Source: Rhodocyclales bacterium (lineage in GTDB: Bacteria > Pseudomonadota > Gammaproteobacteria > Burkholderiales > Rhodocyclaceae). From it: a stretch of DNA of 64,000 nt. The stretch lies in NCBI GenBank assembly GCA_026399435.1, contig JAPLQX010000017.1, positions 62,001 to 126,000 of the forward strand, read 5' to 3'. The translations under genes and the position numbers were made by a program. The notes below the pieces were generated by a model. It made no database searches. It saw only the letters and a program-made list of their open reading frames with translations, and was not told the DNA's origin. Of the stretch, positions 50,049-64,000 are shown piece after piece. Position 1 is the stretch's first letter. Every line of letters starts with the position of its first letter.

Positions 50049-50450
50049 TCAGCTTGCCTTGGCGAGCTTGGCCTTAAGTCGTTGCGCCGTCTTCTCGACG
50101 CCGACGATGAAGCGGTTGTGCTTGCCGCGGGCAACTTCCTCGACCGCATCACGCGCCGTAAAGTCGAACGAAACGGCGCCGCCATTAACCTCGGTCAGTG
50201 TGACTGTGATATCCACCCACATGCCCATTAGCGTGGCGCCGACGTGATCCAGTTCGACCCGGGTGCCGACCGAGTCCTTGCCCGGCTCGATGTGCTGCAG
50301 CAGCAGATCGCGGCATGCCATCTCGATGTCGTAGAGCAGGTTGGGGGTCGAGTAGACCCGGCAGTCCTCGCCCATGAAGCTGATGGTGCGCTCGCGGTCG
50401 ACATCGACGTGGCGGGTGGCCGTGAGGCCGGCTTTAAGTGTTTCGCTCAT
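50049..50450 (-). CDS. FlK-like hotdog acyl-CoA thioesterase
   Basis: The product has 133 residues. It resembles fluoroacetyl-CoA thioesterase FlK-type hotdog proteins: MGEDCRVYSTPNLLYDIEMACRDLLLQHIEPGKDSVGTRVELDHVGATLMGMWVDITVTLTEVNGGAVSFDFTARDAVEEVARGKHNRFIV. In that family Thr, Glu and His act together; here T36, E43 and H69 fall in the matching segments. It lies 68 bp downstream of the acyl-CoA synthetase on the same strand, so it may release or police an aryl-acyl-CoA. Confidence 0.8.
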   Translation of the reverse strand: MSETLKAGLTATRHVDVDRERTISFMGEDCRVYSTPNLLYDIEMACRDLLLQHIEPGKDSVGTRVELDHVGATLMGMWVDITVTLTEVNGGAVSFDFTARDAVEEVARGKHNRFIVGVEKTAQRLKAKLAKAS

Positions 50451-50518: not shown

Positions 50519-52621
50519 TCAGCGACGGCTTCTGAGGGAATCGGTGTACAAGCGGGCCTCAACGTAGCGTACCAGCGCCTTGGTGCCGCGCGCGCAGTTG
50601 CGGAACACGCAGACGCCCTGATCCATCAGGCCGGCGCACATGGCGTCGTAGAGCTGCCCGCCGTCGACGATGCCGATCACTGGCTTCTCGTTGCGCTCCA
50701 CCAGCGGCGGCATCAGATGCACGGTGCTCTTCGGGTCCGTGATATCGAAACCGGGGCGCAGGGTGCTTTGTTGCAGCGCCCGCACCGCGGGTGCTGTGGG
50801 GTCGAGGCCGACCACGACGGCATCGATCTCGGGATCCTGCAGAAAGGCCTCGACGATTTGCAGGTGGGCTTCGTCATCGGCACCGGGATTGATGTCGATC
50901 GGGTTTCTGACCTCGACCAGGGCATTCAGCTTCTTGGCGAGCAGAATCTCTTCCAGGCGCTTGACCGTATCCTCGCTGAGGGCGCCCATGGTCATGGCAA
51001 AGGTCTCCGACTCGATGGAATCGGCCATGCCGACCGCTTCGAAGCCGGCGCCGCTGATGGCTCCGAGGCGATTGCCGCCGATCTTCTTTTTGTGCAGCGC
51101 GCCGGCGATGTAGAACAGGTCGTCGAAGCTGTTGAAGTCTTCGGCGACGATCGCTCCCGCCTGGCGCACCACCGATTCGAACAGGACCGGGCCGCCCGCG
51201 ATCGACGCGGTATGGCCCATGACGCCGCCCATGCCGGGCGCGGTCTTGCCTGACTTGTAGACTACGACCTGCTTGCCCTTGAGCACGGCCTTGCGCACTG
51301 CCCGGGCGAAGTCGAGGCCGTCCAGATCCTTGAAGCCCTCGATGTAGATGCCGATGGTTTCGATTTCGGGCAACTCGGCAAAATAGCCGAGCATGTCGCC
51401 GTGGGTGAGATCGGTCTGGTTGCCCAGGGCCAGCATATAGCGCGGATCCAGCCACGGATTCTGGCTGATGCGGGTGATCATGAAGGCGCCGCTCTGGCTC
51501 AGCATGACCGAGTTGCGCTCGGATTTCTTCTGCGGCTTGGGCAGGCGCTCCAGCGGGATGAACCAGGAGTCGCAGGAGCCGGGATGCGACACCACGCCGA
51601 GGCAGTTGGCGCCGAGGAACACCGGGCCGCCGCCCGGCTTGGCATGGGCCGCGTTGATGCGCCCGGCCAGTGCAGCGGCGGGCTCGCGGCTGGCCTTGGT
51701 TTCGCCCAGGCTGCCGGGAATCAGCATCACCGATTCGACGGAGTCGGTTTCGATGATTTCATCGACCAGTTCGTAGACCGCACTGGCGGCCACCGCGACG
51801 ATCAGCAGGTCGAGCTTGTGATCCAGCGCCTTGAGGCTTTCGACGCACTTGACGCCGTCGATCTCGGTCTCGCCGGCGCGGATGATGCACAGGCGTTCCT
51901 TGCTGTAGCCGCTTCCCATCAGGTTCTTCAGGATGATGCGGCCGAAATTCATGTTGGAAGACGATACGCCGATGATGCCGATCGAGGCCGGATGGATCAG
52001 CTTGTCGATCTTGTGAATCGGGCGGGGCAGGCGGCCTGTAGGCGGCGCGACGAATTCGCAATGTGCCTTTTGAACCGTCAGACGATCATCGCAATGGACG
52101 GGATTGAGCTCCAGACTCTTGAGTACGAATGCGGCATCCGTGTCGCCTGGCGAGTGGCAACTCGCCAGCGCAAGCATTTGTTCGAAGCAGTTCTCGAGCT
52201 GCTGGTCCGCGACGGGCTGACCATCGCGCTTGGGGATGGCGGCGAGTCGTTGATAGGCCAGCGTGCGTTTGAACAGGCCGAGGAAGTCGCTGGCGCTGGT
52301 CAATTCGGTGGCGGCGTAGACCGACGCCCGATCCTTCCTGAAGTTGCCTTCGTCGAGATCGGCATCCAGGCCGCCCAGCCCGGCGCTGATGACCATGCCG
52401 AATTCGCGGGTGTTGTTCAGGCTGATTCGGAGTTCGACGGCGTGCGAGCGTGGTGTCGGCGGCACATCCTGAGCGAATGCGATGTCCAGGCTGGCAAGCA
52501 GGGTACCCAGTTCTCCCGTGTTCAGCGAGTCGCGCCCCGCGGCGGCGGCTTGCCGGAACAATTCCGTCGTTACGGGCTTGTTGGCAACGGCTCGGGTCCT
52601 GAACTGTGACGGATTCTGCAT
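50519..52621 (-). CDS. NDP-forming acyl-CoA synthetase, beta-alpha (permuted) order
   Basis: The product has 700 residues. The N-terminal 215 look like the ATP-grasp (beta) portion, ending LKSLELNPVHCDDRLTV. A CoA-binding Rossmann domain follows (PASIGIIGVSSSNMNFGRIILKNLMGSGY, GANCLGVVSHPG), then the ligase-CoA domain with FMITRISQNPW, IGIYIEGFKD and the phospho-histidine loop VMGHTASIAGGPVLFESVVRQAG. Usual ADP-forming acyl-CoA synthetases have alpha then beta, so the order is reversed. The ATP-grasp part is short and its catalytic residues are unclear. It lies beside the paaX/pad genes and carries a candidate PaaX operator. Confidence 0.85.
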   Translation of the reverse strand: MQNPSQFRTRAVANKPVTTELFRQAAAAGRDSLNTGELGTLLASLDIAFAQDVPPTPRSHAVELRISLNNTREFGMVISAGLGGLDADLDEGNFRKDRASVYAATELTSASDFLGLFKRTLAYQRLAAIPKRDGQPVADQQLENCFEQMLALASCHSPGDTDAAFVLKSLELNPVHCDDRLTVQKAHCEFVAPPTGRLPRPIHKIDKLIHPASIGIIGVSSSNMNFGRIILKNLMGSGYSKERLCIIRAGETEIDGVKCVESLKALDHKLDLLIVAVAASAVYELVDEIIETDSVESVMLIPGSLGETKASREPAAALAGRINAAHAKPGGGPVFLGANCLGVVSHPGSCDSWFIPLERLPKPQKKSERNSVMLSQSGAFMITRISQNPWLDPRYMLALGNQTDLTHGDMLGYFAELPEIETIGIYIEGFKDLDGLDFARAVRKAVLKGKQVVVYKSGKTAPGMGGVMGHTASIAGGPVLFESVVRQAGAIVAEDFNSFDDLFYIAGALHKKKIGGNRLGAISGAGFEAVGMADSIESETFAMTMGALSEDTVKRLEEILLAKKLNALVEVRNPIDINPGADDEAHLQIVEAFLQDPEIDAVVVGLDPTAPAVRALQQSTLRPGFDITDPKSTVHLMPPLVERNEKPVIGIVDGGQLYDAMCAGLMDQGVCVFRNCARGTKALVRYVEARLYTDSLRSRR

Positions 52622-52678
52622 GCTTTGACTCCCTTGGTGCCGCGATCGACAGGGTGGTGCCGGGGAGCAACTATAACA

Positions 52679-52716
52679 GATACAGAAATATCAATAAACT
52701 TTAGTCTTAATGTATC
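52679..52716. promoter_or_regulatory. Candidate PaaX operator at the acyl-CoA synthetase promoter
   Basis: GATACA (52679-52684) and TGTATC (52711-52716) form a perfect 6-bp inverted repeat with 26 bases between. In minus orientation the site overlaps a weak promoter (TTTATT, 17 bp, TATAGT) for the acyl-CoA synthetase. The right half continues CGT, as in the twin site at 53780-53818. Confidence 0.65.
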
Positions 52717-52756
52717 GTTTGATCTCCATCAAGTCGCGGGTTGGCTGGAGCCTGTA

Positions 52757-53692
52757 TCAGGCAGCGGGCGTCGCCAGGCCGCCGAAACGTTCGTAGAAGT
52801 ACGTGGCAGCGGGAGGCAGAGGGCCGTTGGCGGTCTCGCAAACCGCCAGCAGATGCTGCTGGGCGAGCGGGTAGGTGATGCTGTACAGGTCGCGGCAAAG
52901 CTGGCGGGCGACGCCGCCGCTCCAGTTGGCCGGAAGAAGCTGCGACGGCAGTTGGGGATCGTGCAGCAGCGCCCGCCGGAAGTGGTGCATGAGCAGCGTC
53001 TGAACCAGGAAGCACTGCTCGGGATCGAGGCTGCCGGCGGCGCGCATGGTGCGCAGTACCGGACGGAACAGTTCGATGAAGTCGTGATACTTGGCGGAAA
53101 GGACATCGAGATTCCAGCATTCATGCACCAGTTCCTGCAGCGGCTTGCTGGTCAGGGCACTGATATTGACGGCTTTCATGGCGACGACCTTGTCGTGCGC
53201 TCCCGTCTCCTGAAGGATGTCGAGCAGGGCGTCGGTATCCGCCGAGGGGTGGGCGAGTATGCCTGAGGCCAGCGCGCCGTAGCCCGCCCAGGCCAGTTCC
53301 TTGCGCAGGGCGTCGCGTTGCGCGCCGGCCAGCGAGCCGGGGATCATGACCAGTTGCCACTCTCCGCTCCAGGTGTCCTGCGGCGCGAAATAGATTCGGC
53401 GATAGGCGTGTTCGAAGCGGCGCCGGCCCGACGTGGTCAGGCTGTAATAGCTCTTGCGGCCCATCTGCTCGGACACCAGCCATTTTTCCTGGGACAGGCG
53501 ATAGACGCTGGTGCGCACCATGCGCTCGTTGAGGCCAAGCGGTTGCACCAGCCTGATGAAGCTGCCGAGCCAGACCGTGCCGCCGTGCGGGGCGATGAAG
53601 TCGCCATAGATCGTGATGATCAGTGAGTTGGCGCGGGTCGGGTGCTGATCGAGGAAGTCCTTGATCCACTGACTGATATATCGGCTTTTCAC
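52757..53692 (-). CDS. paaX: PaaX-family transcriptional repressor
   Basis: The product has 311 residues. PaaX-type N-terminal winged helix: SLIITIYGDFIAPHGGTVWLGSFIRLVQPLGLNERMVRTSVYRLSQEKWLVSEQMGRKSYYSLTTSGRRRF. The central and C-terminal PaaX domains follow (WSGEWQLVMIPGSLAGAQRDALRKELAWAGYGALASGI, LVQTLLMHHFRRALLHDPQLPSQLLPANWSG). In E. coli PaaX represses paa genes and is released by phenylacetyl-CoA. It is divergent from fdhD-pad and upstream of the acyl-CoA synthetase. Confidence 0.93.
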   Translation of the reverse strand: MKSRYISQWIKDFLDQHPTRANSLIITIYGDFIAPHGGTVWLGSFIRLVQPLGLNERMVRTSVYRLSQEKWLVSEQMGRKSYYSLTTSGRRRFEHAYRRIYFAPQDTWSGEWQLVMIPGSLAGAQRDALRKELAWAGYGALASGILAHPSADTDALLDILQETGAHDKVVAMKAVNISALTSKPLQELVHECWNLDVLSAKYHDFIELFRPVLRTMRAAGSLDPEQCFLVQTLLMHHFRRALLHDPQLPSQLLPANWSGGVARQLCRDLYSITYPLAQQHLLAVCETANGPLPPAATYFYERFGGLATPAA

Positions 53693-53779
53693 ATTATTCC
53701 TAATAGACGGATCGGGGCGGTCGCGACGCTACACATTGTATTGGATCATCCGACCCGCAGCATTAGATAACTCTAATGT

Positions 53780-53820
53780 GATACAAAACCATTGCATCAA
53801 TTCTGGCAAAAGTGTATCGT
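53780..53820 (+). promoter_or_regulatory. fdhD-pad promoter with candidate PaaX operator
   Basis: GATACA (53780-53785) and TGTATC (53813-53818) are perfect inverted arms 27 bases apart. They bracket the predicted promoter TTGCAT (53792-53797), 17 bp, TATCGT (53815-53820), which starts about 50 bp before fdhD. A further palindrome TTAGATAACTCTAA lies at about 53763-53776. The same GATACA/TGTATC pair recurs upstream of the acyl-CoA synthetase. PaaX in the same gap is the obvious binder. Confidence 0.7.
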
Positions 53821-53870
53821 AACATCAATAGGGTCAAATCTGACCCCGATACGAACAGACGAGGCGGGCA

Positions 53871-54686
53871 ATGCAACACGAGGCGGGTGTGGGCATCGAG
53901 GCACATAACAAATACGGCGCGTATCGCTGGGCGGACGGCGCCGGCACGGATTCGCACGAGACGGTGGCGGAAGAGGTGCCGGTGGCGCTGGTCTATAACG
54001 GCATCTCTCATGCCGTGATGCTGGCGACGCCACTGGACCTGGAGGATTTCGCCCTGGGTTTCAGCCTCAGCGAATGCATCGTCGGCCGCGTGGGCGAAAT
54101 CCACGATCTGGAAATCGTCGAGCGCGACAACGGCATCGAAGTCCATATGCAGCTCTCCGCCGAGCGCGCCCACATCCTCAAGGAACATAAGCGGACACTG
54201 GCCGGACGCACCGGCTGTGGTCTCTGCGGTTCGGAAAGTCTCGATCAACTGGCCAAGCGGGCCGCTACCGTCCGTTCTTCTGCCGTGCTGAGCGCGGGAG
54301 CCTTGCCGCGTGCCTTGTCCGCGCTGCAGGACATGCAGCACCTGTTTCAGTTGACGGGGGCGGTGCATGCCGCCGCCTGGTGCGACTTCAACGGCGGAAT
54401 CCATCTGGTGCGGGAGGACGTGGGGCGCCACAACGCGCTCGACAAGGTGATCGGCTCGCTGGCGTCCCAGCGCCGGGCGTTCGATGGCGGCTTCGTCCTC
54501 ATGACCAGCCGTGCCAGTTATGAAATCGTGCAGAAGGCAGCGGCTGTCGGCATTGCGGTAGTCGCGGCGGTTTCTGCACCTACCGGCATGGCAGTCAGGG
54601 TGGCGATCGACTCGGGGGTCACGCTCATCGGCTTTGCCCGCGGCGAGCGGCATTGCGTCTATTCGCATCCCGAACGCGTTCAATAG
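53871..54686 (+). CDS. fdhD: Formate dehydrogenase accessory sulfurtransferase FdhD
   Basis: The product has 271 residues. It shows VPVALVYNGISHAVMLATPLDLEDFALGFSLSECIVG, the catalytic GRTGCGLCGSESLD (CxxC loop), GAVHAAAW, REDVGRHNALDKVIGSL and TSRASYEIVQKAA. FdhD passes sulfur from IscS to the molybdenum cofactor of formate-dehydrogenase-type enzymes. No formate dehydrogenase is nearby; the only such enzyme is PadB, 27 bp downstream, so FdhD probably matures it. Confidence 0.95.
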   Translation: MQHEAGVGIEAHNKYGAYRWADGAGTDSHETVAEEVPVALVYNGISHAVMLATPLDLEDFALGFSLSECIVGRVGEIHDLEIVERDNGIEVHMQLSAERAHILKEHKRTLAGRTGCGLCGSESLDQLAKRAATVRSSAVLSAGALPRALSALQDMQHLFQLTGAVHAAAWCDFNGGIHLVREDVGRHNALDKVIGSLASQRRAFDGGFVLMTSRASYEIVQKAAAVGIAVVAAVSAPTGMAVRVAIDSGVTLIGFARGERHCVYSHPERVQ

Positions 54687-54713: not shown

Positions 54714-57467
54714 ATGGCAGCAGTCCAACCGAAATCCGTCAAGCACGTTCCGACCCTTTGCTACAACTGCGTCTCCGGTCCCGACTTCATGACCGTCAAG
54801 GTGGTTGATGGCGTGGCGACCGAGATCGAACCCAATTTCGCTGCGGCCGAGGTGCATCCGGCGAAGGGGAAAGTCTGCGTCAAGGCCTACGGCCTGGTGC
54901 AGAAGACCTACAACCCGAACCGCATCCTCACGCCGATGAAGCGGACCAATCCGAAGAAGGGCCGCAACGAGGATCCCGGCTTCGTGCCGATCTCCTGGGA
55001 CGAAGCGCTTGACCTCGTCGCCGGCAAGCTCAATGCCGCGCGCGCCAAGGGTCTGGTCGACGAGGCCGGGTTGCCGCGGGTCGCCGTCAGCCTTGGTCAC
55101 GGCGGCACGCCGTCGAATTACATGGGCACCTTCCCGGCCTTTCTGGCCGCCTGGGGCCCGGTGGATTTCAGCTTCGGGTCGGGCCAGGGCGTCAAGTGCG
55201 TGCATTCCGAACACCTCTACGGCGAGTTCTGGCATCGCGGCTTTACCGTCGCCTCCGACACGCCGAACGCCCGCTACGTAATCGCCGTCGGCGCCAATGT
55301 TGAAGTGACGGGCGGTCCCTGCGCGGTGATCCGTCATGCTGATGCGCGGATCCGCGGCTACAAGCGCGTCCAGGTGGAGCCGAGCCTGACGGCGACGGGC
55401 GCCTGCTCGGCCGAATGGGTACCGATCCGGCCCAAGACCGATCCGGCCTTCCTGTTCGCCCTGATCCACGTCCTGATGCACGAAAACGGACTGGGGAAGC
55501 TCGACATTCCGTTCCTGCGCGACCGCACCGCTTCGCCGTACCTGATTGCGCCGGACGGCCTCTATCTGCGCGACCCGCAGAGCGGCAAGCCGCTGGTCTG
55601 GGATGAAGTCTCCGGTACCGCCGTGCCGCATGACACAGCCGGCGCGCAGCCCGCCGTGGCAGGTGCCTACCGCCTCGCGCACGCCGTGGTGGTCGATGCC
55701 GACAAGGAGCGCCGCGAGTACTCCGACGTCGAAGGCAAGACGGCCTACGAGATGCTTTTGCAGCACATTGCGAAGTACACGCCGGAATGGGCCGAGACGA
55801 TCTGCGACGTGAAGGCCGCGACCATCCGCCGCATCGCCAACGAGTACCTCGAAGCCGCCAGTATTGGCGAGACGATCGAGATCGACGGCAAGACCTTGTC
55901 CCTGCGGCCGGTCGCTGTGACGCTGGGCAAGTCGGTGAACAACGGCTGGGGCGCCTACGAATGCTGCTGGGCGCGCACCGTGCTGGCCGCTTTGGTCGGC
56001 GCGCTGGAAAACCCCGGCGGGCTGGTTGGCACCACGGTGCGCCTCAACAAGTCGCGCGACAACCGCCACCTTTCCGTGGCGCCCGGCGAAGACGGCTTCA
56101 TGGTCCAGTACTTCAATCCGACCAGCAAGGAGGAGTGGCAGTCGACGCCGTCCACCCGCAACCTGCACCAGACCCTGGTGCCCATCGTCGGCCACAACGG
56201 CGCCTGGAGCCAGGCCCTCGGCCCGACGCAACTGGCCTGGATGTTCCAGGGCGAGCGCCCCGACGACTGGTCGATGCCGATGCCGACGCTGCCGGACGTG
56301 TGGATCGTCTACCGCTCGAATCCGTCGATCTCCTTCTGGGACACGCGGCACCTGGCGGAGGTTGCGGCACGCTTTCCGTTCATGGCCTGCGTGGCCTACA
56401 CGGTCGACGAGACCAACTACATGGCCGACGTGCTGCTGCCGGAGGCGACCGATCTCGAATCCACCCAGATGATCCGCATGGGCGGAACCAAGTACATGGA
56501 GCAGTTCTGGGACTACAAGGGCGTGGTGCTGCGGCAGAAGGCCGTCGAGCCGCAGGGCGAGGCCCGCGACTTCACCTGGATCACCACCGAGCTGGCCAGG
56601 CGCACCGGCCTGCTCGACCCGTATTTCGGCGCCATCAACAAGGGCATCTCCGGCGTTTCGCCGCTCAAGGGCGAGGGCTACGATTTCAGCCTGGATCCGG
56701 CCAGCGAACCGGCGCCCGAACAGATCTGGGACGCGGTCTGCCGCGCTGCCTCCGTCACGCTCTCGGAAGGCCGCGAGGAGCACGACCTGGAATGGTTCCG
56801 CGAAAACGGCTTCTTCGCCGTGCCGATGTCGCGGCTCGAGTGGTATTTGACGCCGACCATGGAAAAACTCGGGCTGCGCTACGAACTGCCCTACCAGGAA
56901 CGCCTGCTGCGCGCCGGTCGCGAACTCGGTCGGCGGCTGCACGAGAAGAAGATGAACTGGTGGGATGAACAACTTTCCGAATACACCGCCTTGCCGGAAT
57001 GGCACGACGTGCCGGGGCGCTGGATACGCAACCTGGAAAAATCGGGTGCCAAGCTCGAGGACTTCCCGTTCTGGCTGCTGACCACCAAGAGCATGCAGTA
57101 CCACGCCGGCGGCAATGCCGCGATCGAGGTGATGCACGAGGTGGCGCAGAACCTGCGCGGCCATGCCGGAGTGATCATGAATGCGAAGACCGCGGCCGGC
57201 CTCGGCATCGCCGAGGGCGACCGCGTCGAGGTGCGCTCCCACATCGGCGCCACCTACGGCAAGGCGTCCCTGATGCAGGGCATCCGGCCGGATACCCTGG
57301 TCATCATCGGCCAGTTCGATCACTGGGCGACCCCCTTTGCCAAGACCATGGATGCGCCCAGCCTCAACACCATCGCGCCGATGTCGCTCGACCTCACCGA
57401 CGCGACGGGTTCCGGTGCCGACATCGTGCGGGTGGGCGTGCGTCGCGCGGAGGGGATGGCAGCATGA
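54714..57467 (+). CDS. padB: Phenylacetyl-CoA:acceptor oxidoreductase, molybdopterin subunit PadB
   Basis: The product has 917 residues of the DMSO-reductase family. It oxidises phenylacetyl-CoA to phenylglyoxylate by four electrons. The bis-MGD fold is shown by FVPISWDEALDLVAGKL, LGHGGTPSNYMGTFPAF, GQGVKCVHSEH, IVGHNGAWSQAL, the substrate-site loops, and the C-terminal cap VIMNAKTAAGLGIAEGDRVEVRSHIGATYGKASL. The N-terminal iron-sulfur motif has only three Cys (C16, C19, C55), so it cannot match CX2CX3CXnC. No twin-arginine signal is present, so it is cytoplasmic. Confidence 0.92.
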   Translation: MAAVQPKSVKHVPTLCYNCVSGPDFMTVKVVDGVATEIEPNFAAAEVHPAKGKVCVKAYGLVQKTYNPNRILTPMKRTNPKKGRNEDPGFVPISWDEALDLVAGKLNAARAKGLVDEAGLPRVAVSLGHGGTPSNYMGTFPAFLAAWGPVDFSFGSGQGVKCVHSEHLYGEFWHRGFTVASDTPNARYVIAVGANVEVTGGPCAVIRHADARIRGYKRVQVEPSLTATGACSAEWVPIRPKTDPAFLFALIHVLMHENGLGKLDIPFLRDRTASPYLIAPDGLYLRDPQSGKPLVWDEVSGTAVPHDTAGAQPAVAGAYRLAHAVVVDADKERREYSDVEGKTAYEMLLQHIAKYTPEWAETICDVKAATIRRIANEYLEAASIGETIEIDGKTLSLRPVAVTLGKSVNNGWGAYECCWARTVLAALVGALENPGGLVGTTVRLNKSRDNRHLSVAPGEDGFMVQYFNPTSKEEWQSTPSTRNLHQTLVPIVGHNGAWSQALGPTQLAWMFQGERPDDWSMPMPTLPDVWIVYRSNPSISFWDTRHLAEVAARFPFMACVAYTVDETNYMADVLLPEATDLESTQMIRMGGTKYMEQFWDYKGVVLRQKAVEPQGEARDFTWITTELARRTGLLDPYFGAINKGISGVSPLKGEGYDFSLDPASEPAPEQIWDAVCRAASVTLSEGREEHDLEWFRENGFFAVPMSRLEWYLTPTMEKLGLRYELPYQERLLRAGRELGRRLHEKKMNWWDEQLSEYTALPEWHDVPGRWIRNLEKSGAKLEDFPFWLLTTKSMQYHAGGNAAIEVMHEVAQNLRGHAGVIMNAKTAAGLGIAEGDRVEVRSHIGATYGKASLMQGIRPDTLVIIGQFDHWATPFAKTMDAPSLNTIAPMSLDLTDATGSGADIVRVGVRRAEGMAA

Positions 57468-59091: not shown

Positions 59092-59664
59092 ATGTACGAA
59101 GTACGCTTTCATGGCCGCGGCGGCCAAGGCGCCGTTACGGCGGCATCGATGCTCGCGTCGGCGCTGCTGGAAGAAGGCAAGTATGCGGTGTCGATCCCGT
59201 CCTTCGGTTTCGAGCGGCGCGGCGCGCCCGTGGTCTCCTTCCTGCGCTGCAGCGATCGCGAAATCCGCCAGCTGACCAACATCTACACGCCCGACTGCCT
59301 GATCTGCGTCGATCCGACGCTGGCGAAGTCGGTCGATATCTTCAGCGGCCTCAAGCCGGGCGGCACGCTGGTGCAGGCTACGCACAAGCCGCTGGCCGAA
59401 GTGGTGATCGCCGATACGGTCGGGGTGGTCGGCCTGTGCGACGCGATCGGCATCGCGCTCGAGGTTTTCAAGCGCCCGATTACCAATACCATAATGCTCG
59501 GTGCATTCGCGAAGACGACCGGAGTGGTCTCGCTGGAAGCGCTCAAACGCTCGCTGGAAGAGTCGGATTTTCGCGACGCCGGTCTGGCGCAGAATCTCAT
59601 CGCGCTGGAGCGCGGTTACAACGAGACGACGGTGCACACCATCGAGCGGAGGGTCGCGGCATGA
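59092..59664 (+). CDS. padE: Phenylglyoxylate dehydrogenase, gamma subunit PadE
   Basis: The product has 190 residues. It is the gamma subunit of 2-oxoacid:acceptor oxidoreductases: YEVRFHGRGGQGAVTAASMLASALLEEGKYAVSIPSFGFERRGAPVVSFLRC. Phenylglyoxylate is oxidised with CoA to benzoyl-CoA and CO2 with NAD reduction. It starts 63 bp after padD, and CGGAGGAGACGG lies before the ATG. Confidence 0.93.
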   Translation: MYEVRFHGRGGQGAVTAASMLASALLEEGKYAVSIPSFGFERRGAPVVSFLRCSDREIRQLTNIYTPDCLICVDPTLAKSVDIFSGLKPGGTLVQATHKPLAEVVIADTVGVVGLCDAIGIALEVFKRPITNTIMLGAFAKTTGVVSLEALKRSLEESDFRDAGLAQNLIALERGYNETTVHTIERRVAA

Positions 59665-59960: not shown

Positions 59961-61204
59961 CTACCGCCACCCTCGCAACCCCGAACCAGGCCAAGCCGGC
60001 GAAACAGAAGGTGATCCTCTGCGAAGGCAACGAAGCCGCCGCTCTGGGCGTTGCGCTGGCGCGTCCCGACATGGTCGCCGTGTATCCGATCACGCCGCAA
60101 TCGTCACTGGTCGAGCACGTCGCCAAACTGATCGCCGATGGCCGCATGGACGCCGACATCGTCGACGCCGAAGGCGAACATTCGGTGCTCTCGGTGCTGC
60201 AGGGCGCAGCCCTGGCCGGGGCGCGGACCTATACCGCGACCTGCGGCCCCGGTCTCGCCTTCATGTTCGAGCCCTATTTCCGCACCTCGGGCATGCGCCT
60301 GCCGATCGTCATGTCCATCGTCACGCGCGACGGCATCACGCCGCAATCGGTCTGGGGCGGACATCAGGACGCGATGACGGTGCGCGAGGTGGGCTGGGTC
60401 CAGGTGTATTGCGAGACCGTGCAGGAAGTTCTCGACACCACCATCATGGCCTTCAAGATCGCCGAGCACCACGACGTGATGCTGCCGGTGAATGTCTGCC
60501 TCGACGGCAACTACCTTTCCTACGGCACCTCGCGTGTCGAACTGCCCGATCAGGCCGAGGTCGATGCCTTCATGGGCGTCAAGGACGTCAATTGGCACGT
60601 GGCGCTCGACCCGCTGCGGCCGATGGCGGTCGACCCGCTGACCGGCGGTTCGGGCGGCAAGGGGCCGTCCACCTTCGTCCGCTATCGCAAGGGCCAGTGC
60701 CGCGGCATGCAGAACTCGCTGCGGGTGATCGAGGAAGTGCATGAGGAATGGGCGCAGCGCTTCGGCCGCCGCTTTGCGCCGCTGGTCGAGGAATACCGCA
60801 TGGACGGCGCCGACTACGCGATCATGACCCTGGGCAGCATGACCGGCGCGGCGAAGGATGCGATCGACGAAGCACGCGACGCCGGCAAGCGGGTAGGGCT
60901 GATCAAGATCAAGACCTTCAGCCCCTTCCCGGTTGAAGCCCTGCTCAAATCGCTGGCCAAGGTGCAGGCGCTCGGTGTGGTCGACCGCTCGGTCGGCTTC
61001 CGCTGGAACTGCGGGCCGATGTACCAGGAGACCATGGGGGTGCTGTATCGCCTCGGCAGGCACGTGCCGTCGATGAGCTTCATCGGCGGCTTGGCCGGCG
61101 CCGACATCACGGTCGGGCATTTCCATCGCGTCATCGAGGCCACCGAGAAACTGCCGAGCAGTCCGGCGCCGAGCGAGCCGGTCTGGCTCAACGAGAAGGA
61201 TTGA
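59957..61204 (+). CDS. padG: Phenylglyoxylate dehydrogenase, alpha subunit PadG
   Basis: The product has 415 residues. It is the alpha subunit of the pyruvate:ferredoxin-oxidoreductase class: CEGNEAAALGVALARPDMVAVYPITPQSSLVEHVA, AEGEHSVLSVLQGAALAGARTYTATCGPGLAFM and the C-terminal domain KTFSPFPVEALLKSLAKVQALGVVDRSVGFRWNCGPMY. The YPITPQS motif is typical of 2-oxoacid oxidoreductase alpha subunits. ATG 59957 overlaps padF by 4 bp. Confidence 0.95.
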   Translation: MTTATLATPNQAKPAKQKVILCEGNEAAALGVALARPDMVAVYPITPQSSLVEHVAKLIADGRMDADIVDAEGEHSVLSVLQGAALAGARTYTATCGPGLAFMFEPYFRTSGMRLPIVMSIVTRDGITPQSVWGGHQDAMTVREVGWVQVYCETVQEVLDTTIMAFKIAEHHDVMLPVNVCLDGNYLSYGTSRVELPDQAEVDAFMGVKDVNWHVALDPLRPMAVDPLTGGSGGKGPSTFVRYRKGQCRGMQNSLRVIEEVHEEWAQRFGRRFAPLVEEYRMDGADYAIMTLGSMTGAAKDAIDEARDAGKRVGLIKIKTFSPFPVEALLKSLAKVQALGVVDRSVGFRWNCGPMYQETMGVLYRLGRHVPSMSFIGGLAGADITVGHFHRVIEATEKLPSSPAPSEPVWLNEKD

Positions 61205-61206
61205 TC

Positions 61207-62460
61207 ATGGAACAGACCAAGTATCTGGTGGTCGGCAGCAGCCACGCCGCGCTCGAAGCGGTAACCGCGATCCGCATGCACGATGCGACCGGCAGCCTGA
61301 CGCTGCTGACGCGCGATCCGCACCTGCCTTACTCGCCGACCGTGCTGCCCTATGTGGTCTCCGGGCGTTCCGCGCCCGAAGGCATCTTCCTGCGCGACGA
61401 AAAGTTCTTTGCCGACAACCATGTTGCCTTGAAGCGCGGCACGGCACTGAAGGCGCTGCATGCCGACCGCAATGCGGCCGAACTGGCCGACGGCAGCGAG
61501 ATCGCCTACGAGAAGATCCTGCTCGCCACCGGCGCTTCACCCGCCATTCCGCCGATTCCCGGCATCGATACGGTGTCGTATCATGTGCTGCGCACGCTGG
61601 ACGACGCGACGAAACTGAACGCTGCGATCAAGCAGTCGAAGCAGGCCGTGGTGATGGGCGCCGGGCTGGTCGGCATGCACGCCGCCGAGAACCTGGTCAA
61701 GGCCGGCGCCAAGGTCACCATCGTCGAAATGGCCAAGCAGCTCACCGACGGTTATTTCGATGCCGTTGCCGCGAGCCTGATCGAAAAGGCCTTCACCGAC
61801 AACGGCGCGACGATTCTTACCGGCAGTCGCGTCGTGAAGCTCGCGCCTTCAGCCGTCGGCGCAACGCTGACACTGGAAAACGGCACGACGCTGGAAGCCG
61901 ATCTGTTGCTGGTGGCCACCGGCGTCAAGCCGAACATGGAGTATCTGGCCGGCAGTCCGGTCGAGCACGATCGCGGGATTCTGGTCAGCGACACCATGCA
62001 GACCAGCGTCGCCAATGTCTGGTCCGCCGGTGACTGCGCGCAGGCCAAGGGTTTCTTCACGGATGGCAAGGTGATGAATGCCATCCTGCCGGACGCGACG
62101 GAACAGGGCCGCATCGCGGGCATGGCCATGGCGGGCGATCCCGGCCTGAAGCACTACCCGGGCGGCGTGCCGCTCAACGCCTATCATTTCTTCGGCCGCC
62201 ATGCGATTTCCGTCGGCAGCAGCAAGGTGCCCGACGGCGCCGAGGTGGTGACGCGCTTCGACGAAAACAGCGGGCGTTATCTCAAGGCGATCTTCAAGGA
62301 TGGCTGCTTGCTGGGCATCTATGGCGTCAATGAATTCTTCGACGGCGGCGTCATGTGCCAACTGATTCTGCGGCGGGTCGATCTATCGGCCGTCAAGGAC
62401 CGCTTCGTGGCGAATCCGCTGGCTGTCGGCCGCGAACTGATGTCCAAACTCTGGCGTTAG
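61207..62460 (+). CDS. padH: Phenylglyoxylate dehydrogenase, NAD-binding flavoprotein subunit PadH
   Basis: The product has 417 residues. FAD motif VVGSSHAALEAVTAIRMHD, NAD Rossmann motif VVMGAGLVGMHAAENLVKAGA and the FAD motif NVWSAGDCAQAK are visible; LLATGASPAIPPIPGID also fits pyridine-nucleotide-disulfide oxidoreductases. It passes electrons from the ferredoxin subunits to NAD. The start is taken as ATG 61207; an in-frame TTG at 61201 overlaps the padG stop. Confidence 0.93.
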   Translation: MEQTKYLVVGSSHAALEAVTAIRMHDATGSLTLLTRDPHLPYSPTVLPYVVSGRSAPEGIFLRDEKFFADNHVALKRGTALKALHADRNAAELADGSEIAYEKILLATGASPAIPPIPGIDTVSYHVLRTLDDATKLNAAIKQSKQAVVMGAGLVGMHAAENLVKAGAKVTIVEMAKQLTDGYFDAVAASLIEKAFTDNGATILTGSRVVKLAPSAVGATLTLENGTTLEADLLLVATGVKPNMEYLAGSPVEHDRGILVSDTMQTSVANVWSAGDCAQAKGFFTDGKVMNAILPDATEQGRIAGMAMAGDPGLKHYPGGVPLNAYHFFGRHAISVGSSKVPDGAEVVTRFDENSGRYLKAIFKDGCLLGIYGVNEFFDGGVMCQLILRRVDLSAVKDRFVANPLAVGRELMSKLWR

Positions 62461-62469
62461 GAGACGACC

Positions 62470-63825
62470 ATGGGAAGAAGCTACAACACCATCGCCTTCG
62501 ACGCCGCCAAGTGCGACGGCTGCGGCGACTGCATGACGGCATGTGCGACGGTCAAGACCGGAAGCACCGACAAGAGCCGCTCGCGCATCCAGATCGTCGG
62601 CGATGAGAGCGACGGCTTCGAACTCGCGCTGTGCCGCCAGTGCGGCGATCCGAAATGCGTCACGGTCTGCCCGGCCGCGGCATTGACCAAGAACTTTGAT
62701 TCCGGCGTGATCGAATGGAATGCGTCGAAGTGCGTCGACTGTCTGTTGTGCACGGTCGGCTGCGCCTATGCCGGCATCGCGCTCGATGAGGGCGTCGGCC
62801 ACGTCGCCAAGTGCGACATGTGTTACGCAAGCCCCGACGGCGCCCCGGCCTGCGTGCCGGCCTGTCCGCACGATGCGCTGACCTACATCACGACTTCGCG
62901 CATCTACAACGAGGTCGGCGACTGGGAAGATCTCTTCGCTCCGGGGCTGGCCGGCTGTCAGGGCTGCAACACGGAGCTGCTGATGCGCCACACGCTGCGC
63001 CGGGTCGGGCCGGAGACCGTACTGGCGACGCCGCCCGGCTGCGTGCCCGGCATGGGTTCGGTCGGCTTCAACGGCACCACCGGCACCAAGGTCCCGGTTT
63101 TTCATCCGCTGCTGACCAATACCGCGGCCATGCTGGCCGGCATCAAGCGGCAATACAAGCGTGTCGGCCGCGAAGTCAATGCGCTGGCGATTGCAGGCGA
63201 CGGCGGCGCTTCCGACGTCGGTTTCCAGTCGCTGTCCGGCGCCGCCGAACGCAACGAGCAGATACTTTTCATGGTGGTCGATAACGAGGGCTACATGAAC
63301 ACCGGCATGCAGCGTTCGAGCTGCACGCCGTATGGCGCCTGGACGTCGACCACGCCGATCGGCAAGGGATCGGGCGGCATGCCTTCGCAGGGCAAGACGC
63401 AGGATGCCAAGAATCTGCCGCTGATCATGGTCAATCATCGCTGCGAGTATGTCGCGACGGCGTCGACAGCCTACATGCAGGATCTCTACGACAAGCTCGA
63501 CAAGGCGATCCAGGCCTCCAAGCGCGGCTTTGCCTACCTGCATGTCTATTCGCCCTGCACCACGGGCTGGCGCTTCCCGACCGACCAGAACATGGAAGTC
63601 GCGCGCAAGGCAGTCGAAACCAATTTCGTGATGCTCTGGGAGTACAACCCGAAGGATGGCCTGGAGTTCACGCGGCCGGTGGATGATCCGCTGCCGGTGA
63701 CCGAGTATCTGAAGGCGATGGGGCGCTTCCGCCATCTGAGTCCGGATCAGATTTCACACATACAAGGCAAGGTCGTGGAAAATCTCGCTTTCGTCAAACA
63801 AATGGCTCATCGACAGAGCGCTTAG
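62470..63825 (+). CDS. padI: Phenylglyoxylate dehydrogenase, beta (TPP-binding, ferredoxin-fused) subunit PadI
   Basis: The product has 451 residues. The N-terminal 150 residues hold 4Fe-4S motifs (CDGCGDCMTACA, CRQCGDPKCVTVCP, CVDCLLCTVGCA, CDMCYASPDGAPACVPACP). The TPP-binding domain starts at about 155 with GCQGCNTELLMRHTLRRVGPETVLATPPGCVPGMG; the TPP motif is AGDGGASDVGFQSLSGAAERNEQILFMVVDNEGYMNTGMQ. It is the catalytic subunit. The start is 9 bp after padH with TAGGAGA before it. Confidence 0.94.
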   Translation: MGRSYNTIAFDAAKCDGCGDCMTACATVKTGSTDKSRSRIQIVGDESDGFELALCRQCGDPKCVTVCPAAALTKNFDSGVIEWNASKCVDCLLCTVGCAYAGIALDEGVGHVAKCDMCYASPDGAPACVPACPHDALTYITTSRIYNEVGDWEDLFAPGLAGCQGCNTELLMRHTLRRVGPETVLATPPGCVPGMGSVGFNGTTGTKVPVFHPLLTNTAAMLAGIKRQYKRVGREVNALAIAGDGGASDVGFQSLSGAAERNEQILFMVVDNEGYMNTGMQRSSCTPYGAWTSTTPIGKGSGGMPSQGKTQDAKNLPLIMVNHRCEYVATASTAYMQDLYDKLDKAIQASKRGFAYLHVYSPCTTGWRFPTDQNMEVARKAVETNFVMLWEYNPKDGLEFTRPVDDPLPVTEYLKAMGRFRHLSPDQISHIQGKVVENLAFVKQMAHRQSA

Positions 63826-63836
63826 GGGGAAGAAAA

Positions 63837-64000
63837 ATGAGCAAGCAGGATTTGCCGGGCAGCGGCCTGGAACCGATCGAGAAGGCAAGCCGGGACGAAC
63901 TGCAGGCGCTGCAGCTGCAGCGCATGAAGTGGTCCTTGCAGCACGTCTATGACAACGTGCCGCACTACCGCAAGAAGTACGACGCCGCCGGCGTGCACCC
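63837..64000 (+). CDS. paaK: Phenylacetate-CoA ligase (partial, runs off the window)
   Basis: The first 54 residues are open to the window edge: MSKQDLPGSGLEPIEKASRD, then LQALQLQRMKWSLQHVYDNVPHYRKKYDAAGVH. This N-terminus (IEKASRDELQALQLQRMKWSLQHVYDNVPHYRKK) is characteristic of the AMP-forming phenylacetate-CoA ligase. GGGGGAAGA precedes the ATG. Position after padI supports the role of making phenylacetyl-CoA for PadBCD. Only the start is seen. Confidence 0.85.
   Translation, partial: MSKQDLPGSGLEPIEKASRDELQALQLQRMKWSLQHVYDNVPHYRKKYDAAGVH

Follow-up and report, generated by a model that had tools for sequence, protein, structure and literature searches.

GATACA palindromes flanking paaX as predicted PaaX operators at the pad locus of a Rhodocyclales bacterium

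The window analyzed here is a stretch of 64,000 nucleotides from a Rhodocyclales bacterium (contig JAPLQX010000017.1), in which a paaX gene lies between genes for an acyl-CoA synthetase and thioesterase on one side and the fdhD-padBCDEFGHI genes on the other (Table 1). By its profile matches, the protein encoded between the two palindromes described below is a member of the PaaX family: the Pfam profiles PaaX (PF07848), PaaX_M (PF20803), and PaaX_C (PF08223) are all matched above cut-off, and the protein consists of an N-terminal winged helix-turn-helix domain, a Cas2-like middle domain, and a C-terminal domain. Residues 9-306 match the solved PaaX chain 8a39, which we take to be PaaX from E. 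coli; identity to E. coli PaaX is 39% over 302 amino acids. This gene gives the only PF07848 match in the assembly.

The synthetase is of the NDP-forming type, although its ATP-grasp_5 match falls below the cut-off of that profile. Its thioesterase neighbor also follows the synthetase gene at two related loci (L083 and L084), where some 2.0-2.1 kb separate the end of the synthetase gene from a padB homologue behind it; the pairing with a FlK-type thioesterase and the position near padB support the putative membership of the synthetase in the pathway. On the other side of paaX, the names padB, padC, padD, padF, and padG are putative assignments from gene order. For the phenylacetate-CoA ligase homologue that begins at the right end of the window, comparison at L190 gave 66% identity with E. 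coli PaaK across 433 amino acids.

Table 1. Genes, palindromes, and likely promoter elements of the window (positions count from the first nucleotide).
Feature	Position	Strand	Remarks
FlK-type acyl-CoA thioesterase gene	50049..50450	-	Pfam FlK, 5.3e-30
NDP-forming-type acyl-CoA synthetase gene	50519..52621	-	Pfam Succ_CoA_lig and CoA_binding_2 above cut-off
Likely -10 TATAGT, synthetase promoter	52670..52675	-	3 bp outside operator arm; 17 bp from -35
Operator 1, GATACA-N26-TGTATC	52679..52716		Upstream of acyl-CoA synthetase; perfect in 19/19 synthetase-paaX intergenic regions
Likely weak -35 TTTATT, synthetase promoter	52693..52698	-	Inside operator 1 spacer
FNR/Anr-type box TTGAT-N4-ATCAA	52719..52732		Perfect; 2 bp from operator 1
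paaX, PaaX-family repressor	52757..53692	-	GTG start; TIGR02277 312.6 bits (cut-off 264.55)
Second dyad CATTAGA-TAAC-TCTAATG	53761..53778		Perfect; directly upstream of operator 2; degenerate versions in relatives
Operator 2, GATACA-N27-TGTATC	53780..53818		Between paaX and fdhD-pad
Likely -35 TTGCAT, pad promoter	53792..53797	+	Inside operator 2; TTG nearly invariant in 34 perfect N27 pad sites
Likely -10 TATCGT after TG, pad promoter	53815..53820	+	Overlaps right arm; 17 bp from -35
fdhD, first gene of pad operon	53871..54686	+	TIGR00129 241.2 bits (cut-off 140.9)
padB, large molybdopterin subunit, phenylacetyl-CoA:acceptor oxidoreductase type	54714..57467	+	Pfam Molybdopterin
padE, phenylglyoxylate dehydrogenase gamma subunit	59092..59664	+	NF045762 337.7 bits (cut-off 300)
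padH, phenylglyoxylate dehydrogenase epsilon subunit	61201..62460	+	NF045765 743.3 bits (cut-off 475)
padI, phenylglyoxylate dehydrogenase beta subunit	62470..63825	+	NF045766 834.7 bits (cut-off 700)
Phenylacetate-CoA ligase homologue (paaK/padJ type), start	63837..64000	+	Runs on beyond the window

Both gaps flanking paaX contain a perfect inverted repeat with the arms GATACA and TGTATC, termed operators 1 and 2. An earlier note on this DNA had described the pair, and its coordinates, 6-bp arms, and 26- and 27-base spacers proved exact; the right-hand extension that it gave as common to both sites, TGTATCGT, holds as the plus strand reads, but site 1 presumably serves the minus strand, on which its extension is TGTATCTG. 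The two operators are the only matches to GATACA-N22..30-TGTATC in the window, and 100 dinucleotide shuffles of the window gave none. Single GATACA hexamers are not above chance (11 observed versus 8.9 +/- 2.4 expected), so the signal resides in pairing and spacing. Across the assembly (2,875,774 bases, 80.9% complete) GATACA-N20..32-TGTATC has three matches and its reversed control has none; the number expected over the 13 spacers, from the composition of the window, is 0.45 with independent bases or 0.18 with a first-order Markov model. At the position of the second dyad, many related pad promoters of the genus carry a conserved block resembling GTATAAGG-N-TCTAATGT, and in several Aromatoleum-type pad promoters an FNR box stands where genus members have this block.

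The third palindrome of the assembly (contig C3, 10244-10281) lies just upstream of paaABCDE, a classical PaaX target. It is about 70 bp before an ATG of a frame that is 64% identical to E. coli PaaA and is followed by paaB, paaC, paaD, and paaE; the start of paaA is uncertain, as an earlier in-frame ATG overlaps the palindrome. A PaaX operator would be expected to recur in front of paaA in its own genome, and the palindrome was found there. Each of the six genus genomes searched contains exactly three palindromes, two of which flank paaX. The third is at paaA, as identified with the E. coli protein, in four of them (G000, G001, G117, and G151); in the other two (G069 and G181), which have no paaA match, it precedes a diverged gene of the PaaA_PaaC family beside a second PaaX paralogue. 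That paralogue (L039 5515-6458; L045 5032-5974) is 63-64% identical to the PaaX of the window, and the PaaA_PaaC-family gene with its own PaaX paralogue possibly represents a different aryl-CoA oxygenase. When the motif is loosened to GATNCA-N25..27-TGNATC, the six genus genomes have 8-15 matches each; most of those added to the three perfect sites have a spacer rich in G+C. The regulon of an anaerobic pathway envisaged in the earlier note is supported as far as the pad operators are concerned, which are conserved, but in this genus it is not anaerobic only, as paaABCDE is included in four of the six genomes.

Control of paaA through this motif looks narrow, because none of 18 paaA loci outside the genus (eight from the same family and ten from other families) has a GATnC-armed palindrome upstream of paaA. 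When up to two mismatches were allowed, one of the eight family loci (L168) gave a candidate with a single mismatch to GATACA, some 300 bp upstream. In a genome without a padB match, a palindrome (L060 5984-6020) lies upstream of an aldehyde dehydrogenase gene that is followed by homologues of paaG, paaH, paaI, and paaK; aerobic clusters of other genomes may therefore use the motif as well. For scattered motif matches at two further loci (L055 and L049), Pfam searches of nearby open reading frames gave no evident link.

Conservation at pad loci was assessed in the best 80 of 382 confirmed padB loci in a genome collection; of the named records there, those closest to the window carry the labels Sulfuritalea, Rhodocyclaceae, or Rhodocyclales. 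A perfect site is present within 2.5 kb upstream of padB at 43 of these 80 loci, and a site with up to one mismatch at 53; the remaining 27 have none in that interval even at one mismatch, some of them with incomplete upstream DNA and many others being more distant homologues. Each of the 119 other arms made from the same letters occurs as a perfect site at one at most of the best 80 loci. With one mismatch allowed, 60 random permutations gave a mean of 1.5 of the best 80 loci, the largest counts being those of AGATAC (24), ATACAG (13), and then CGAAAT (8); the first two are apparently shifted readings of the GATACA site. Although spacers of 10 to 59 were allowed, 65 of 67 perfect arm pairs have a spacer of 25, 26, or 27. 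A set chosen from the best 80 loci independently of the motif, with paaX and fdhD divergent and less than 500 bp apart (n = 31), contains a perfect site in 30 regions and a one-mismatch site in the remaining one, versus 0 perfect and 2 one-mismatch sites in 1550 base-shuffled controls. Where the synthetase gene is less than 500 bp from paaX, again among the best 80 loci, a perfect site lies between them in every region (Table 1). The search that the earlier note had proposed, for GATACA-N25-28-TGTATC upstream of paaX and pad genes in relatives, was thus strongly positive.

Named strains with a perfect pad site include Aromatoleum toluclasticum, A. diolicum, A. toluvorans, A. buckelii, A. toluolicum, and A. 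evansii, as well as Azoarcus sp. Aa7. A single mismatch is found in the pad site of Thauera aminoaromatica and in that of one A. anaerobium locus (L145); the other padB locus of A. anaerobium (L147) has no pad site at up to one mismatch. A record labelled Desulfobulbus (L133) contains a pad locus with a perfect palindrome and a PaaX 67% identical to that of the window, which reflects either transfer or a mislabelled metagenome bin.

Palindromes of this kind could be accidental, or could work as terminators or as hairpins in DNA or RNA, and some Aromatoleum-type genomes do have a terminator-like second palindrome 3' of paaX. At L046 (6387-6424) and L047 (7620-7657) a hairpin resembling a terminator, with runs of A and of T, lies between the GATACA and TGTATC arms, and such a hairpin 3' of paaX is also found at L121 and L145. 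At the pad and synthetase sites, however, the arms are conserved far above the spacers, in which the mean frequency of the majority base is only 0.58 and 0.67, and the spacing is fixed at 25-27; chance is countered by the shuffles, which returned no match. An origin by chance or as hairpins has next to no likelihood for the sites of the window, and a terminator or hairpin role for them is ruled out by the counts at padB loci together with the fixed spacing and the conservation of arms over spacers.

PaaX operators of E. coli share the layout of these sites: a long-spaced inverted repeat at paaA with related arms, the span being 37-39 bp here versus 37 in E. coli. According to the accessible part of PMC9493321, the published EcoPaaX box is TGATTC(N27)GAATCA and the inducer is phenylacetyl-CoA. 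The E. coli K-12 paaA promoter contains TGATTC-N27-GAATCG, which the strict published form misses by the last base. The half-site differs: GATACA with a spacer of 25-27 between 6-bp arms is found here instead of TGATTC, and the arm TGATTC has no perfect match at the best 80 padB loci. The 5-bp cores GATAC and GATTC differ at one position, and the GATACA operator is accordingly called a variant, in agreement with the earlier description of known PaaX sites as long-spaced TGATTC-type palindromes and of the sites here as diverged boxes. The predicted targets differ as well, as they include the anaerobic pad operon and the synthetase-thioesterase operon, the latter with an adjoining FNR box.

Another transcription factor might recognize the palindromes, with paaX merely a neighbor. 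The motif does occur in some genomes without a TIGR02277 match, one of which (G121) has the palindrome by the synthetase gene, and at several padB loci the site is present although no paaX lies next to it. On the whole, however, the motif tracks PaaX. It is present in 50 of 199 family genomes (reversed control, 9 of 199). A TIGR02277 match occurs in 60 of the 199, and 32 of these have the motif, versus 18 of the 139 genomes that lack such a match (Fisher 7e-9, uncorrected for shared ancestry); among 40 genomes with a padB homologue (E up to 1e-100) it is present in 24 of the 30 that have PaaX and in 3 of the 10 that do not (Fisher 0.006, likewise uncorrected). The loci are phylogenetically non-independent, and several occur in both the family-genome and the padB-locus data sets. 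The extra targets, paaA and the PaaA-family gene beside a PaaX paralogue, and the architecture shared with the E. coli PaaX box also speak against a different factor, which is therefore improbable. Recognition by PaaX itself, as the earlier note had suggested, is supported by conservation in relatives and by the location of the only other site of the assembly just upstream of paaABCDE.

Likely promoter elements are associated with all three palindromes of the assembly. In pad promoters the right operator arm forms an extended -10, TG-TATCGT, and with the -35 also inside operator 2, the likely mechanism is occlusion that phenylacetyl-CoA would lift. At the synthetase promoter the -10 TATAGT is present in all six genus members and absent from the three sequences of other genera compared. 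At the third site the left arm is preceded by TTGACA and immediately followed by a likely -10. A consensus sigma-70 scan of 52600-53900 called no promoter, and the boxes of the window consequently rest on conservation and not on consensus. That both sites overlap a -35 and a -10, as first proposed, holds for both boxes at operator 2 and for the -35 at operator 1, but not for the -10 there, which is just outside the arm. Judged from these positions, PaaX bound at any of the three sites would be placed to hinder RNA polymerase. In E. coli, PaaX competes with polymerase by steric hindrance at Px, and competition likewise operates at Pz, whereas at Pa, the paaA promoter, PaaX acts by a different mechanism (accessible part of PMC9493321); simple occlusion may therefore not hold at paaA.

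The synthetase promoter is distinguished by the FNR box next to operator 1, which is the only match to TTGAT-N4-ATCAA in the window (0.02 expected). Twelve of the 19 synthetase-paaX regions have a perfect FNR box, separated from the operator by 2 bp in 11 and by 18 bp in one (L120). With a relaxed pattern, another genus (L017, L018, and L020) also shows FNR-like boxes at a 2-bp distance from the synthetase operator, and such boxes are found 17 bp from the pad operator at seven loci (L109, L111, L112, L118, L132, L135, and L138), but at this distance not at L117, L121, L124, or L145. Provided that the -10 has been placed correctly, the FNR box of the synthetase promoter would be centered near -61.5, a class I position. 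FNR orthologues are present in all five other genus members (43-47% identity to E. coli FNR); none that is clear was found in the assembly, at its 80.9% completeness. The location of the box beside the operator suggests a promoter governed by the absence of oxygen AND the presence of phenylacetyl-CoA, which would probably need FNR as well as release from PaaX and would fire only when both hold. A role for PaaX alone at every site is thought unlikely for the synthetase promoter, given the conserved FNR box. Assignment of the synthetase and thioesterase genes to the PaaX regulon, as originally suggested, stands on the perfect operator in all 19 regions, with the amendment that their promoter also has this box.

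The palindromes are thus best explained as PaaX operators from which PaaX is released, probably by phenylacetyl-CoA, with FNR added at the synthetase promoter; this sequence-based reading is given a probability of roughly 0.87. PaaX would bind two GATACA half-sites, separated by about three turns of the helix, and cover promoter elements in and beside the spacer. Bound at operator 2 it would shut off fdhD-padBCDEFGHI, probably together with the ligase gene that comes next; at operator 1 it would shut off the synthetase-thioesterase operon; and at the third copy of the palindrome it would act on paaABCDE in the same way. Phenylacetyl-CoA is the likely releasing signal, as the substrate common to the anaerobic (pad) and aerobic (paa) branches. 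The ligand could instead be a different aryl-CoA from the anaerobic route, such as benzoyl-CoA, considering that the pad operon runs from phenylacetyl-CoA to benzoyl-CoA and that this PaaX has diverged from its E. coli counterpart. Such a ligand is nevertheless unlikely: the same operator stands immediately before paaABCDE, the products of which act on phenylacetyl-CoA, the protein scores above the TIGR02277 equivalog cut-off, and phenylacetyl-CoA is the inducer in characterized PaaX systems (accessible part of PMC9493321).

At the pad loci of Aromatoleum that have enough upstream DNA, a PaaX-type gene and the operator are mostly present, L147 being the exception. The PaaX-type gene beside fdhD-padB at L046 is presumably padR of Aromatoleum aromaticum EbN1. 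In that strain padR (EbN1_C30890) goes with the pad cluster, as the regulator gene does here, and other regulators go with the aerobic genes (accessible part of PMC9765128, which specifies neither a family nor an operator for padR). The separate regulators of the aerobic genes fit the lack of GATnC-armed palindromes at the eight family paaA loci outside the genus; in Aromatoleum-type genomes PaaX has apparently been kept on pad but not on paaA.

Several known systems are comparable. PaaX of Pseudomonas sp. Y2 co-regulates styrene and phenylacetate degradation, so that, as proposed here, one PaaX links separate pathways through phenylacetyl-CoA, with the difference that it joins upper and lower styrene catabolism instead of anaerobic and aerobic branches (accessible part of PMC9493321). 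MbdR, BzdR, and BoxR also exert aryl-CoA-responsive control over aromatic catabolism, the MbdR pathway being anaerobic, but they belong to the TetR and XRE families and use other operators (accessible part of PMC4424350). A term search of the main text of a comparative study of aromatic regulation in Betaproteobacteria found no mention of PaaX (PMC6449761). A literature search with coverage mostly outside subscription papers returned nothing on a GATACA operator or on PaaX control of pad.

In this interpretation, to which we incline with some reserve, one PaaX would be the common phenylacetyl-CoA switch for paaABCDE and pad, to which FNR boxes at fixed distances (2 bp at the synthetase operator and 17 bp at several pad operators of Aromatoleum type) would add the choice by oxygen, forming a composite FNR-PaaX AND gate with wiring that has changed from genus to genus. 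For the anaerobic phenylacetate/phenylglyoxylate pathway of denitrifiers such as Aromatoleum, where the literature covered gives no more than an associated regulator gene, a specific operator sequence and a predicted regulator can thus be named, and a rule is offered for how a facultative degrader of aromatic compounds may pick the oxygen-dependent or the oxygen-free route from the same intermediate. The GATACA palindrome is a ready motif for finding further members of the regulon.
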